From an uncultured bacterium (lineage in GTDB: Bacteria > Cyanobacteriota > Vampirovibrionia > Gastranaerophilales > Gastranaerophilaceae), in contig CADBUY010000006.1 of the NCBI GenBank assembly GCA_902797965.1, forward strand, positions 1-64,000: 64,000 nucleotides of DNA, in the 5' to 3' direction. A program made the translations under genes and the position numbers. The notes beneath the pieces were generated by a model. The model worked only from the letters and a program-made list of their open reading frames with translations, searched no databases and had not been told where the DNA came from. Positions 10,474 to 36,131 of the stretch are shown piece after piece (position 1 is the stretch's first letter; every line of letters starts with the position of its first letter).

Positions 10474-11345
10474 TTGTTCCCTCTCCTTTTAGGAGAGGGT
10501 TAGGGTGAGGTTTATTTTTTCCCTCGCCCTTGAGGGAGAGGCTAGGAAATTGTTTAAAACATTTCCCTCGCCCACAGTATCCATTTGGTGGGAGAGGGTG
10601 TCCGAAGGACGGGTGAGGGAAGGGGGTGAGGTGATGGTTAAATATCCCCCTCTTAAATTCTCCCCCGAGGGGAGAACATAGGTCTGTTTTAGTCTGACAA
10701 AATAATTATGCGTTTTATCATTACGAGCCTCTCAATGACAATATTAGCTCCCTCCCCTCGGGGGAGGGATTAAGGGAGGGGGATGATTTTTTGTTTTCCC
10801 TCCCTTATTAGGGAGGGGAAGGGAGGGTGTTAATTATGATTGAATAAGTTTTAATACACACCCCACCGACCCTCCCCTAACTAGGGGAGGTACAAAACTA
10901 CTACTATCGAGCCTCACAATGACCGTTTTCCCTCCCTAAGTAGGGAGGTTTGGGGAGGGTGTTAATTTTGATTGAATAAGTTTTAATACACACCCCACCG
11001 ACCCTCCCCTACTAAGGGGAGGTACAAAACTACTACTATCGAGCCTCTCAATGACAACAGTTGCTCCCTCTCCCTTTGGGACTCTGCCGAAAGAAAGGTG
11101 ACGAAATGTCACGTTTCTTGAGAGGTAGGTTAGGGGGGGGGTTATTCTTCTCCCCTCCCCTCGGGGGAGGGATTAAGGGAGGGGGATGATTTTTTTTCCC
11201 CCTCCCTAGTTAGGGAGGGCAAGGGAGGGTGTTAATGAGTTTTGATTGAATAAGTTTTAATACACACCCCACCTAACCTCCCCTATTGAGGGGAGGAATT
11301 TATTGTGATAGTTTTATTAACTTGCTCCCTCCCCTACTGAGGAGA
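10474..11345. repeat. Intergenic block of modular palindromic repeats
   Basis: About 870 bp without a gene. It holds at least three copies of a roughly 125-bp module (10798-10923, 10930-11056, 11198-11299). Each has CCCTCCC...GGGAGGG arms, a core GTGTTAATTATGATTGAATA, then ACACACCCC and CTCCCC...GGGGAGG arms, and usually ends in ACAAAACTACTACTATCGAG plus CCTCACAATGAC. It also carries the GTGAC/GTCAC hairpin element at 11080-11140 and the ATATCCCCCTC module near 10637. No transposase and no credible frame. Confidence 0.85.
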
Positions 11346-11389
11346 GGTACAAAACACCCTCTACCATAGTAGAGGGATTAAGATAACAG

Positions 11390-12625
11390 TTACTTTAGTT
11401 CTCTTTGAATAAAATTAATAACAAAATCTAAAGCGCCCTGCTGGGATTTGAATACTTCATTCCCTGCTTTAGAAGTATTTTCGTAAAACTTCGGTTCAGA
11501 GAGCAATTTATCTGCCACTTTGTAAAATTCATTTTGTGTTTTTACGACAAAACCTGCTTTAGCATTTTGAATAATTGCATATATATCTTTAAAATTATGA
11601 ATTGACGGGCCTGAGATTACAGGCTTTGAAAATATGATTGATTCAAGAGGGTTGTGACCGCCTGTTTTGTTAAAACTTCCTCCAATAAACGATATATCTG
11701 AATAAGCAAACATTTTACTCAATTCACCCATTGTATCAAGTATCATAATATCTATATCAGACATAGAACTTATGTTTTCACTTCTGAAACCGTAGGTAAA
11801 ACCGCTTTCACCAACAAGAGTTTCTACCTCATCTTTTCTTGTCAAATGGCGTGGTGCAATTATCAGTTTTAAATCATCATGTTTAGCTTTAAGCTCTTTA
11901 TAAACATTAAGAACAATCGCGTCTTCTCCCGAGTGCGTAGATGCAGCAAGAAGAACTTTTCCGCATTTATCAAAATCAAAAGTAATCTCAGGAGCCGTTA
12001 TATCAAATTTAAGATTATTCATCCTGATTGTTGTATCAGGATTTGTTCCTAATGACAAAAACTTATCCAAGTCCTCAGTACTTTGGGTTAGAATGCCTGA
12101 ATAAAAGTTCAAAAGCGGTTTAAAGAAAAATTTTAGCTTTTTATAAGAATTATAGGTTCTATCTGATATCCTGCCATTTATTATGCAAAGCTTTATGCCT
12201 CTGTTTTTACATTCTATAGCAATATTTGGCCAAATCTCAGTTTCTGCAATAAGGATTAAATCAGGTTTAATGTTATCTAAAAACTTTTTTACGCATGATG
12301 GAGTGTCGAAAGGGAAATAAGTTATTAAATCAACAACATTATCAAGTTTTTTGTGTGCGATTTCTTGTCCGGTATTTGTGCCTGTTGTTACAACAATCTT
12401 AATATCGGGAAATGTTTCTCTGGTCTTTTTTATCAGTTTTTCTATAGCGTTAATTTCACCTACAGAAACTCCATGAAACATAATAACTTTGGTGTTATTT
12501 TTATCAAATTTTACGTTGCCTTTTTTTAAATTTATTGCTTCATCAGAATAATTACCGTACTTGTGAAATACCAATAATAACGGATAAATAAGTCTAAATA
12601 TTATTTCACTAATCAATCCAATCAT
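11390..12625 (-). CDS. waaA: 3-deoxy-D-manno-octulosonic acid (Kdo) transferase
   Basis: 411 aa GT30 glycosyltransferase that adds Kdo to the lipid A precursor at the inner membrane. An N-terminal hydrophobic anchor (ISEIIFRLIYPLLLVF) is followed by the catalytic segment HGVSVGE with Glu57. The C-terminal nucleotide-sugar domain has LLAASTHSGED, IIAPRHLTR and SFIGGSFNKTGGHNPLE, the classic WaaA signature. It overlaps the upstream ArnT-like gene by 4 bp (ATGA), so the two are co-transcribed and both act on lipid A. It implies an LPS-type outer membrane. Confidence 0.94.
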   Translation of the reverse strand: MIGLISEIIFRLIYPLLLVFHKYGNYSDEAINLKKGNVKFDKNNTKVIMFHGVSVGEINAIEKLIKKTRETFPDIKIVVTTGTNTGQEIAHKKLDNVVDLITYFPFDTPSCVKKFLDNIKPDLILIAETEIWPNIAIECKNRGIKLCIINGRISDRTYNSYKKLKFFFKPLLNFYSGILTQSTEDLDKFLSLGTNPDTTIRMNNLKFDITAPEITFDFDKCGKVLLAASTHSGEDAIVLNVYKELKAKHDDLKLIIAPRHLTRKDEVETLVGESGFTYGFRSENISSMSDIDIMILDTMGELSKMFAYSDISFIGGSFNKTGGHNPLESIIFSKPVISGPSIHNFKDIYAIIQNAKAGFVVKTQNEFYKVADKLLSEPKFYENTSKAGNEVFKSQQGALDFVINFIQRELK

Positions 12626-33662: not shown

Positions 33663-34130
33663 CTCTTTTTCCCAGTTGAATGAGAGGGATTAAGTGAAGG
33701 GAGTATTCTTTTTTCCCCTCCCCTCTGGACTCTGCCGAAAGAAAGGTGACTAAATGTCACGTTTCTTGAGAGGTAGGTTAGGGCGGGGGATGATTTTTTG
33801 TTTCCCCTCCCTTATTAGGGAGGGCAAGGGAGGGTAATAATTATGATTGAATAAGTTTTAATATACACCCCTCCTAACCTCACCTAAAAAGGGGAGGAAC
33901 ATAACTACTACTATCAAGCCTCACAATGACAATAATTTGTTCCCTCTCCTATTGAGGAGAGGGTTAGGGTGAGGTTTATTTTCTTTTCCCTTCCCTCTGG
34001 GGAGGGTTAGGGTGGGGGATGATTTTTTGTTTCCCCTCCCTTATTAGGGAGGGCAAGGGAGGGTGTTAATTATGATTGAATAAGTTTTAATATACACCCC
34101 ACCTTACCTCCCCTAAAAAGGGGAGGAAAA
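33663..34130. repeat. Intergenic block of modular palindromic repeats
   Basis: Two GTGTTAATTATGATTG-type modules (about 33800-33930 and 34042-34130; the first lacks the GTGTT part), the GTGAC/GTCAC hairpin element (33728-33789) and a CTCTCC...GGAGAGG hairpin with GGGTGAGG. No gene is visible between udk and 34249. Confidence 0.8.
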
Positions 34131-34143
34131 ATTAATACTACAA

Positions 34144-34167
34144 AGCCTTCGTTTATTAACGAAGGCT
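34144..34167 (-). terminator. Terminator-like hairpin
   Basis: Perfect stem AGCCTTCGTT-TATT-AACGAAGGCT, followed on the minus strand by TTTGTAG...TTTTTCC. It lies about 80 bp past the stop of the 249-aa gene at 34249. Confidence 0.65.
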
Positions 34168-34248
34168 CGATGTTGATTGATATAAAAATATTTTTTCTGG
34201 TGAGGATTAGCTCCCACCCTATCCCTCCCCCGTGTGGAGGGAATATTA

Positions 34249-34998
34249 TTATGCAAGTCCGAATTTTGGTGCTGCGTCTTTGATAGATGAACCAAGTTCC
34301 TGTTCGATAGATTCTTTTCTTTGTTTTACAAGCTCGAGTTCTGCTGCGATTGATTCTTTATCTGCTTCGTAATCTGCCTGTTCTTCTGCAAGTAGATCCA
34401 TTTCCCATTCTTTTTGACCGTCTAATTGTTCTTTCATTGCTTCTAACCAATCATCAACTTGTTGTGCATATTGTGTCTTAAAATTATTAACTTGTTGAGT
34501 TATTTGGCTTTGATATTGCTGAACAAATCTTGCAGCCTGAATGACTTTAGAATAACCATTTTTATCAAGTGGTGTTCCAGTATATCCATCGGCGGTATAT
34601 TTTGGATCATCATCTGTTGAATCCTTTGTTTTGCTAAATGCTACACTATTTTGCATATATAATGCTAATGCACTTTCATCGCAACCAGTCTGTTGTATAG
34701 CTGCTTGCATAGCTTGTGTTAGTACGCCATTTGTACCATAAGCACCGGCTCCGGCATAAATACCGCTAGGATCGAAACCACAAGTAAAGATACTGTTTGC
34801 ATTATTTGTTGCATAATTTTTATAAGCTTGTGCTTGTCGCTCGAGTTGTTTTTCTAATTTTGAGTAATATTTTTCGCGTTTCTTAACCTTACTTTCCATT
34901 CTTGAAAGTAGGGTTCCATTATGAAGCTGTTTTAGCGTAAGCTTGTTCTGCTTACGTTGCAGCCTCATTTTTTCATGTAGTAACATTAGAAACGCCAT
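34249..34998 (-). CDS. Coiled-coil orphan protein
   Basis: 249 aa from ATG 34998; the frame is open 71 codons further up but runs through a hairpin cluster. Residues 1-60 are a basic amphipathic helix/coiled coil (MRLQRKQNKLTLKQL...KYYSKLEKQLERQAQ). A Gly-rich middle (GIYAGAGAYGTNG) and Gln-rich helices follow (IQAARFVQQYQSQITQQVNN), then an acidic coiled coil (LAEEQADYEADKESIAAELE). Ends in FGLA. Not recognised. The heptads and lack of signal peptide suggest a structural or secretion-related protein, but that is a guess. Shared-type promoter box at 35034-35069. Confidence 0.65.
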   Translation of the reverse strand: MAFLMLLHEKMRLQRKQNKLTLKQLHNGTLLSRMESKVKKREKYYSKLEKQLERQAQAYKNYATNNANSIFTCGFDPSGIYAGAGAYGTNGVLTQAMQAAIQQTGCDESALALYMQNSVAFSKTKDSTDDDPKYTADGYTGTPLDKNGYSKVIQAARFVQQYQSQITQQVNNFKTQYAQQVDDWLEAMKEQLDGQKEWEMDLLAEEQADYEADKESIAAELELVKQRKESIEQELGSSIKDAAPKFGLA

Positions 34999-35033
34999 CT
35001 TTAATCTTGCTCCGTATAAATTTTTTATACTCT

Positions 35034-35069
35034 TATATATATAAAGTATATTTAGCCCAATAAATTTCA
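35034..35069 (-). promoter_or_regulatory. Shared promoter-like motif (downstream box perfect)
   Basis: Minus strand TGAAAT, 15 nt, TACTTTATATATATA. The downstream box is identical over 15 nt to that before the RHH gene (51943); the upstream box is degenerate. An alternative GTCAAT lies 9 nt further upstream. About 36 nt to ATG 34998. Confidence 0.45.
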
Positions 35070-35108
35070 ATAATTGACAAATTTTGTTACAATTCTTTAC
35101 AAAAAAGA

Positions 35109-35312
35109 GTGTGCGGAAAAAGTCGAAAAATGACAATTTTTCGAACTTTTTCAAACACGACCTAAAGTGTGTGAAATGCGGGTTGTGTGCTATCCCGCAC
35201 ACAACCCGCATTGAAACCGTTCTATGGAACTTGCGAAAAAAATTAAAATTTTCCGCAAGCTCATATTGTTACAAAATTTAAAATGGGCAAAATTGCTATG
35301 TCAATTTTGCCC
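35109..35312. other. Cluster of four strong stem-loops
   Basis: In 200 bp: (1) 35109-35158, about 17 paired bases with one bulge (GAAAAAGT-CGAAAAAT arms); (2) 35175-35212, a perfect 16-bp stem AATGCGGGTTGTGTGC with a 6-nt loop; (3) 35230-35259, CTTGCG/CGCAAG with A/T arms; (4) 35285-35312, a perfect 11-bp stem GGGCAAAATTG with a 6-nt loop. Hairpin 4 lies 40 bp past the 50-aa gene and probably terminates it (minus strand). The others lie upstream of the 249-aa gene. No convincing reading frame crosses it. Confidence 0.8.
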
Positions 35313-35351
35313 AATGATAATCTTGTTTTACCACCCCAAATCAGCAATAAC

Positions 35352-35504
35352 TTAAGCAAGACCCAATGCTTTTCGGTACCAAGAGAAAGACTCAACTTCC
35401 AAACCGTTGAAAGTTGTTTTTACCTGTTGTTTTTTCAGATAGTTTTCAAACTCATCATTGAATGCGGACTTAACTGTTTTTGAATCCTTAGAAATTACTT
35501 TCAT
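35352..35504 (-). CDS. Small orphan protein (50 aa)
   Basis: 50 aa from ATG 35504 with GGAG 8-11 nt upstream; ten further in-frame codons upstream are unlikely to be used. Starts MKVISKDSKTVKSAFNDEF and ends WYRKALGLA; basic, no membrane segment. Not recognised. It shares the promoter motif type with other orphan genes and ends in GLA like the 249-aa neighbour. A hairpin terminator follows at 35285-35312. Confidence 0.6.
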   Translation of the reverse strand: MKVISKDSKTVKSAFNDEFENYLKKQQVKTTFNGLEVESFSWYRKALGLA

Positions 35505-35578
35505 ATTTTCTACTCCTATATTAGTAACACACATTTTATATTTATATTTATATTTGCATACAGTTAATATCTACACTT

Positions 35579-35614
35579 TATATATTTATATTACAATATT
35601 TTAAAATATTTGAC
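35579..35614 (-). promoter_or_regulatory. Shared bipartite promoter-like motif (orphan-gene type)
   Basis: Minus strand GTCAAA, 15 nt, TAATATAAATATATA, about 75 nt before ATG 35504. Upstream of it, TTACAAATCTTTACATT is nearly identical to TTACAAATCTTCACATT before the 53-aa gene at 55930. Confidence 0.5.
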
Positions 35615-35774
35615 AATTACAATGTAAAGATTTGTAAGGGAATTTGTCAAAAATCATTCTTTAGAATAATATGGTGTATAATTATTTTTAACTAATTTTG
35701 CAATTAAATACTATGCAAATAGTAGTAGAAATAAATATAAGTGTATCAAAGAAATAAAAAACACACCGTCAATG

Positions 35775-36045
35775 ACAGTTCCCCTCGCCCTTGAGGGGAG
35801 AGGGGTGAGGGTGTTAATTATGATTGAATAAATTCCAATACACACCCCACCTAACCTCCCCTATTGAGGGGAGGTACAAAACTACTACTAACGAGCCTTA
35901 CAATGACCGTTTTCCCTCCCTTGCGGGACTCTGCCGAAAGAAAGGTGACTAAATGTCACGTTTCTTGAGAGGTAGGTCAGGGTGGGGGATGATTATATAT
36001 TAATAAAAACTATCCCCCTCTTTAATTCTCCCCCGAGGGGAGATA
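35775..36045. repeat. Modular repeat block in a divergent promoter region
   Basis: One GTGTTAATTATGATTG module (about 35790-35910), one GTGAC/GTCAC hairpin element (35927-35988) and one TATCCCCCTC...CTCCCCCGAGGGGAG module (36009-36042). Lies between the divergent 50-aa gene and the secreted 167-aa protein; no gene inside. Confidence 0.8.
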
Positions 36046-36131
36046 AAAATATAAATATCGATTCACGATTCATAATTCACGACAAAGAAAATTATATAGA
36101 TTTTTAGTAAAATATTGTTATAATTAAAGGT

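Follow-up and report, generated by a model that had tools for sequence, protein, structure and literature searches.

A run of strong hairpins in a Gastranaerophilales genome very probably includes a copy of a non-autonomous transposable DNA element

Introduction

The window analysed in this study, a stretch of 64,000 nucleotides from an uncultured gut relative of cyanobacteria of the family Gastranaerophilaceae, carries four strong stem-loops at 35107–35313. The original prediction presented these as a single run between two orphan genes and suggested a structured RNA, a replication or recombination site or a protein-binding array. The question raised by this locus is what these hairpins are, and what keeps their arms paired. 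Here, the stem-loops, their copies and the flanks of these copies are analysed computationally.

Results

The four stem-loops are two separate features

All four stem-loops were confirmed to be present. Folding of the region 35060–35330 yielded −90.5 kcal/mol on the plus strand and −97.9 kcal/mol on the minus strand, as against −47.7 and −50.1 kcal/mol for shuffled sequences (z −9.98 and −10.95, respectively), and none of 200 shuffles folded as well; by this measure the four strong stems, including the perfect 16-bp stem, are real and well beyond chance. They do not, however, constitute one array, as stems 1–3 form a single repeated unit and stem 4 stands apart from it. The features of the region are as follows.

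35107–35262, plus strand: element, one complete copy of 156 nt with GAG...CTC ends, its borders sharp in aligned copies
35107–35121, plus strand: left terminal inverted repeat (TIR), GAGTGTGCGGAAAAA, an exact match to the pattern
35248–35262, minus strand: right TIR, GAGCTTGCGGAAAAT, one mismatch to the pattern
35103–35106, unstranded: left flank AAAA, unlike the right flank
35263–35266, unstranded: right flank ATAT, unlike the left flank
35109–35158, unstranded: stem 1, left-end hairpin (arms 35109–35131 and 35136–35158, 78% complementary, interrupted)
35175–35212, unstranded: stem 2 (arms 35175–35190 and 35197–35212, a perfect 16-bp stem with loop TATCCC)
35227–35262, unstranded: stem 3, right-end hairpin, placed from the sequence and the folds
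35284–35313, minus strand: stem 4, terminator-like site of 12 pairs followed by the T-rich tail TTTTAAATTT, outside the element
34249–34998, minus strand: 249-aa gene, with a promoter region between its start and the element
35352–35534, minus strand: candidate small ORF of 60 aa from its first ATG, preceding terminator-like stem 4, no Pfam family
35084–35281: 65-aa ORF that overruns both borders of the element

Stem 4 is probably an ordinary intrinsic terminator of the minus strand, in agreement with the earlier view that one stem was a probable terminator, although its stem comprises 12 pairs and not the perfect 11 bp first described. Two terminator-like sites are present in 34900–35700, against a mean of 0.1 in shuffles. 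The other three stems do lie upstream of the promoter region of the 249-aa gene, as had been stated. The description of that gene as an orphan does not hold within the genus, relatives being present in 19 of 37 genomes (own included), all of them in one of 14 genera; among viral contigs the 249-aa protein has no relatives.

Upstream of the 249-aa gene the window copy sits between two TTGTAACAA motifs (35084–35092 and 35266–35274). The window holds six matches to TTGTAACAA, with 1.7 expected, and none to TTACANNNNTGTAA, and in the relatives of the 249-aa gene the upstream DNA retains a motif resembling TGTAAAG-TTTTGTAACAA and a stretch resembling TATACTTTATATATATAAGAG. The TTGTAACAA and TGTAAAG motifs, which recur upstream of this gene family in relatives (L272–L292), are possible candidates for an operator. 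Inspection by eye also revealed repeat-looking stretches on both sides in the window, at 34000–34240 and 35760–36050, of the GGGAGGGTTAGGGTGGGGGATGA and CTCCCCT...AGGGGAG types.

Stems 1–3 are one copy of a dispersed repeat

A search for copies, one of the checks proposed alongside the original prediction, proved decisive. When 35060–35330 was used as query against its own 2.08-Mb genome (G000), 23 places were matched at E<1e-15, the window included, and the other 22 matches were confined to 35060–35283 with none reaching stem 4. The repeat is a dispersed family of approximately 157 bp extending from GAG to CTC; its covariance model matches the window at 35107–35262 (model positions 1–157, 152.3 bits), in the plus orientation of the element consensus. 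No transposase gene lies inside the element, which at 156 nt is too short to carry one.

Of 38 genomes sampled from the genus, 27 matched the covariance model at E≤0.001, two of these weakly (E about 1e-4); the richest genomes held 51 and 55 matches, and the other 11 of the 38 had none. In a class-wide sample 7 of 146 genomes had matches, all of the same family. Both sets of counts are likely to be low, as only 79 and 20 candidates per genome, respectively, were scored. A motif scan of genome contigs returned at least 110 stretches with the element pattern. Among the 80 matches listed, most were assigned to Candidatus Gastranaerophilales, Cyanobacteria or 'bacterium' and one to an 'uncultured proteobacterium', and their sources were the rumen, horse, chicken and other guts. 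In viral contigs (IMG/VR) the pattern occurred in a single contig (L166), where a copy with an approximately 72-nt module and a normal loop was noted at about 11180–11460.

Copies are flanked by 4-bp duplications

The ends of the element are imperfect 15-bp TIRs, with GAGNNTGCGGAAAAA at both ends. Three of 84 distinct full copies were dropped for want of GA..TC ends; exact 4-bp target-site duplications (TSDs) flank 56 of the 81 retained, compared to a mean of 2.9 and a largest value of 9 when right flanks were shuffled among copies, and duplications of 2, 3 or 5–9 bp displayed no comparable excess. Eleven of the 81 copies occupy one shared, integrase-linked site, none with an exact duplication, and when these are dropped the exact 4-bp TSD is carried by 56 of 70 distinct insertion sites. 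Target preference is weak and mirror-symmetric, with TTACA before and TGTAA after the duplicated 4 bp (mirrored positions at the 56 TSD sites: T 0.73 / A 0.68 and C 0.43 / G 0.43). A hairpin target, in which TTACA-NNNN-TGTAA would fold back on itself and leave the duplicated 4 nt as the loop, was considered in view of PMC5678879 and rejected: across 68 sites the individual flanks are not hairpins and lack site-by-site complementarity, which was equal to that of shuffled flanks (p 0.50–0.96).

Two recombinase loci represent empty sites, the element being present at that place in 11 others. Seventeen relatives of the 249-aa gene have no match to the element at better than E 0.01 within the 330 bp upstream, and in one such relative (L286) an element fragment lies about 1.1 kb upstream. 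The 4-bp TSDs and the empty sites show insertion. The window copy itself is without an intact TSD, given AAAA on its left and ATAT on its right, and its duplication is one that has decayed or never formed.

These data bear directly on the reading of the array as a fixed host feature, repeated by happenstance, with a replication, nucleoid or regulator-binding role. Simple ORF calling showed that the left-side gene points away from the element in 17 of the 23 own-genome copies, 12 of these genes starting 76–133 bp from it, and the element flanks carry TTACAA/TTGTAA motifs, both of which speak for such a feature. In tandem gene settings, however, neither orientation is preferred (6 versus 4), the element is unmatched in 11 of the 38 genomes of the genus, and the TSDs with the empty sites mark insertion; the TSDs largely refute this explanation, which we regard as very improbable. 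The earlier suggestion of a recombination site or protein-binding array was nevertheless the nearest guess, in that the outer stems do hold the TIRs of a transposable element; what it missed was mobility.

Two other modes of movement were weighed against the insertion data. The element's small palindromes, its arrangement of two hairpins about a linker and its many intergenic copies would suit a REP/REPIN-type palindrome moved as a single strand by a Y1 (RAYT) transposase. The element, in contrast, has a TSD of fixed length, and Y1 transposition is not known to generate one. Its ends are GAG/CTC rather than the GTAG or CGTC tag to which the title of PMC3733652 refers, and we accord this reading scant credence.

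The second concerns a 179-aa tyrosine recombinase, whose gene lies about 80 bp after the element at the shared site and which might mobilise it. This site is found upstream of the recombinase gene in 11 loci, but in two other recombinase loci the corresponding place is empty, and the element is present in only 1 of 30 recombinase loci scanned. Moreover, three element-bearing genomes (G006, G028 and G032) with 11–15 element matches each have no recombinase match, and a tyrosine recombinase would not be expected to leave TSDs of fixed length. As a general mobiliser the recombinase is refuted by the empty recombinase loci, and mobilisation by it is barely credible.

The recombinase forms part of a mobile-looking unit with HipA (PF07804, PF13657) and HTH (PF01381) genes, these domains being assigned from L138; its own domain is PF00589. 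This unit is found at different places in different species (L062, L138, L106, L114 and others), and sequence sharing stops no more than a few bases from the stop codon of the recombinase gene. Members of this family of short tyrosine recombinases (L186–L215) were matched in 36 of 57 genomes, own included, with up to 10 matches per genome and sometimes as two neighbouring genes.

A candidate mobiliser

Neither by pattern nor in the loci examined was an autonomous element with the same ends found among the matches listed, the assemblies being fragmented; the absence of a transposase or autonomous copy is weak evidence, since fragmented assemblies lose repeated elements. Domain searches of the 16 element-bearing genomes located PF01609 (DDE_Tnp_1) in two, over the cut-off in one (G017), and PF00665 in four, over the cut-off in two. 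PF05598 (DUF772), a domain of the IS1182 family, was matched in none of the 16, these assemblies being incomplete, and PF13340 (DUF4096) in 3 of 239 family genomes, none over the cut-off.

Fourteen transposase-domain loci were scanned for element ends, and the GAG..CTC end pair was encountered only in two remnants of a relative (G006).

L314, 1668–2016, and L315, 1369–1716: IS1182-family deletion remnants of 348/349 bp, 99% alike

The remaining loci gave scattered weak end matches, those of L317, L318 and L375 being single ones with two mismatches. The remnants retain the last 50 transposase residues only (NF033551, E 7.9e-16, 58 bits versus a cut-off of 270) and have no TSD. Their ends, GAGGGTGTCCAAAAAGTC (or one base different) and GAGGATGACTAAAAAGTA, are each 14/18 like GAGGATGCGGAAAAAGTC and differ from the element in the 3-base core. 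The IS1182 fragment has no relatives among viral contigs. Judged from these sequence likenesses, a transposase of the IS1182/IS5 type is the best lead for the mobiliser, with a chance that we would put a little short of even.

Two candidate longer units were rejected. In G030:C28, 2,189 bp separate two ends; TerC/DUF475 and PolyA_pol-domain genes lie inside and there is no TSD, for which reasons these are taken as two separate ends. The other, of 1,687 bp (L246), has poor ends and is attributed to chance.

Paired stems: RNA or DNA?

The stem alignment was reduced from 81 distinct copies to 31 rows by leaving out sequences more than 93% alike. Of its cells 91.1% pair, and 31 of 54 pairs show a double change, as against 19.5 in shuffles. 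Its covariation score of 0.336 lies far above that of shuffled rows (0.131) and of slid controls. Conservation of the stems had formed part of the test attached to the original prediction, and they are indeed conserved and covary across lineages, although this alone does not prove an RNA.

These findings count in favour of a mobile structured RNA, in which the element would be transcribed into a three-stem RNA with conserved linkers GTGTGTGA and GAAACCGT that would serve the element or its host in trans. The strong fold on both strands is in keeping with this, as are the linkers, which are invariant in the 31-row alignment; this invariance is, however, partly built in, since 21 of the 31 rows came from a search pattern requiring the motifs GTGTGTGA, GGGATAGCA and GAAACCGT, a bias that leaves most stem columns unaffected. 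Against an RNA, Rfam returned no family at gathering score for the window region (the best sub-threshold match being RefA9, E 0.0074, 29.6 of the 49 bits needed) and no match up to E 1 for the elements of five other loci, and no promoter of the sigma-70-like type, the one type sought, was called inside the element.

Base-pair composition provides a further measure. Among the 1573 cells of columns with 60% or more Watson-Crick pairs, 1445 are Watson-Crick, 30 are G-U, 48 are A-C and 50 are others, the G-U/A-C counts being 14/15 in stem 1, 11/12 in stem 2 and 5/21 in stem 3. G-U pairs are thus not preferred, being no commoner than A-C mismatches. Twenty lower-scoring copies gave 28 G-U versus 31 A-C; in 15 of them an ungapped stem 2 retains 13 or fewer of its 16 pairs (compared to 2 of 31 rows in the alignment), which likewise counts against the mobile RNA, and five keep 14–16. 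Three lower-scoring copies have a perfect 16-bp stem 2, all with non-standard loops (TACCTT, GATGCC, TATCCC), like the window. Two diverged copies (L353 and L354) keep a perfect stem 2 despite 2–3 changed linker bases, a point in favour of the RNA, as selection on the stem would also explain it.

Changes private to single copies were counted in the own genome, where 4 of 23 rows (a second subfamily) were left out to give 19 main-subfamily copies. Here all 16 private changes in stem 2 are one-sided, contrary to what the mobile RNA would lead one to expect; without a truncated copy (L033), the 18 others show 10 one-sided and no two-sided changes. Two of these ten mend a C-A mismatch, one of them being the window's.

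Stem 2 of the window reads GGGTTGTGTGC-TATCCC-GCACACAACCC, as compared to GGGTCGTGTGC-GGGATA-GCACACAACCC in the family; reverse-complementing its right arm with the loop yields its left arm with the loop. Such an inverted loop together with a homogenised arm is the mark of template switching. Both arm homogenisation with spacer inversion (PMC8604942) and compensatory changes arising via template switching (PMC8794818) are described in the parts of these papers cited here. Inverted loops are found at stem 2 in 5 of 155 scored regions and at stem 1, with no normal loop present, in 3 of 192 regions; it is cautioned that template switching is seen in few copies.

Taken together, the A-C mismatches that equal or exceed G-U pairs, the one-sided private changes and the inverted loop of the window argue for DNA template switching (or the needs of a mobile lineage) over an RNA, and on balance we favour template switching as a main cause of stem pairing. 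Matched arms could also move by recombination between subfamilies. The mobile RNA is considered unlikely, and the structured RNA of the original prediction, understood as a resident RNA gene, is rejected as the main reading on the lack of an Rfam gathering match, the lack of a G-U excess and the one-sided private changes in stem 2. One observation sits less easily with the transposable element: young copies keep their linkers and stem 2 more than a transposase recognising the ends alone needs, in part an effect of the search pattern.

Size variants and hairpin modules

Variants of 35, 46, 98–99, 132, 175, 203–228 and 267–288 bp have similar ends (three or fewer mismatches) and a 4-bp TSD. Sorting by eye revealed an extra hairpin of approximately 55 nt in the far arm of stem 2 (L293, L294, L300, L301), one of approximately 72 nt in the far arm of stem 1 (L295, L296, L301, L302) and one of 44 nt in the stem-1 loop (L297, L298), in addition to GGGGTAAA-type repeats within stem 1 in G030 and G014. 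These palindromic modules and repeats lie nested at recurrent places in the stems and loops of copies (L293–L302, L333–L352). Stems 1 and 3 resemble free palindromes of 54 bp and 35–36 bp, and a TSD flanks one of these palindromes (L326, 35 bp).

It is tentatively proposed, at rather less than an even chance, that the element is modular and hairpin-built: its ends would be separate palindromes that also exist as units of 35–54 bp, its middle would be exchangeable, and further hairpin modules would lodge time and again in its stems and loops as template switching keeps rewriting the palindromes. If this is so, DNA processes alone would be enough for the family to mimic RNA covariation, and it would offer a natural test of covariation as proof of RNA.

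Discussion

Employing repeat searches, flank analysis and stem alignment, it was possible to arrive at a reading of this locus in which stems 1–3 are, very probably, one copy of a Gastranaerophilales non-autonomous DNA transposable element (MITE). The element is dispersed with fixed borders and TIRs, it is flanked by 4-bp TSDs and missing from empty sites, and it has no room for a transposase. The explanation as a whole, comprising the MITE, its proposed movement and the cause of pairing, is held with good confidence.

With regard to movement, it is likely that a DDE-type transposase acts in trans. Supplied from elsewhere, it would bind both ends and excise or copy the element, which would then be joined to AT-rich DNA cut with a 4-bp stagger, between flanks like TTACA...TGTAA, often about 100 bp upstream of genes; that this transposase is of the IS1182/IS5 type is a weaker supposition. 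During replication, template switching may copy arm onto arm and sometimes flip a loop. The three hairpins would stay paired because of this switching and because movement continues only in lineages whose ends are intact, and copies, once inserted, would decay.

A striking hairpin array is thereby accounted for by a mobile element, one that is abundant in a genus of uncultured gut bacteria related to cyanobacteria. The locus also exposes a practical trap, as strong covariation, usually taken as proof of a structured RNA, is here found without a G-U preference and is accompanied by one-sided private changes and a visible template-switch event.

The literature search, in which few subscription journals were covered, retrieved no description of a MITE in Gastranaerophilales. 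The element is a real MITE family, undescribed in the literature searched, with an unusual three-hairpin body. Bacterial MITEs, among them Correia/NEMIS, RUP and ERIC, are reviewed in PMC2229807, and in the portion of that review cited here they share with the element a length of 100–200 bp, TIRs, a TSD, many copies, strong stem-loops and the lack of a transposase of their own. Most of the MITEs tabulated there have 5'-TA-3' termini, in contrast to the GAG/CTC ends and 4-bp TSD of the element, and a single stem joins their 5' and 3' ends, whereas each end of the element forms its own hairpin with a third between them. In its two long inverted repeats, two arms with a linker and intergenic position the element is like CIR of Caulobacter and Brucella, although in the same tabulation CIR is listed without a TIR and with its TSD unknown; the element has both, and a third stem in its linker.

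Among Tn3-derived elements, TIMEs are similarly non-autonomous, with shared ends, AT-rich insertion and mosaic derivatives, but the part of PMC4133298 cited here gives them 38-bp IRs, duplications of 5–6 bp and lengths of 262 bp and more, unlike the element. Likeness to the IS1182 family resides in the 14/18 agreement of the G006 remnant ends with GAGGATGCGGAAAAAGTC of the element. According to the cited part of PMC5678879, new insertions of IS1272, a member of that family, are directed to inverted repeats, which they replace without generating a TSD; the element differs from such stem-loop replacement in that it leaves a 4-bp TSD and its targets are not hairpins.
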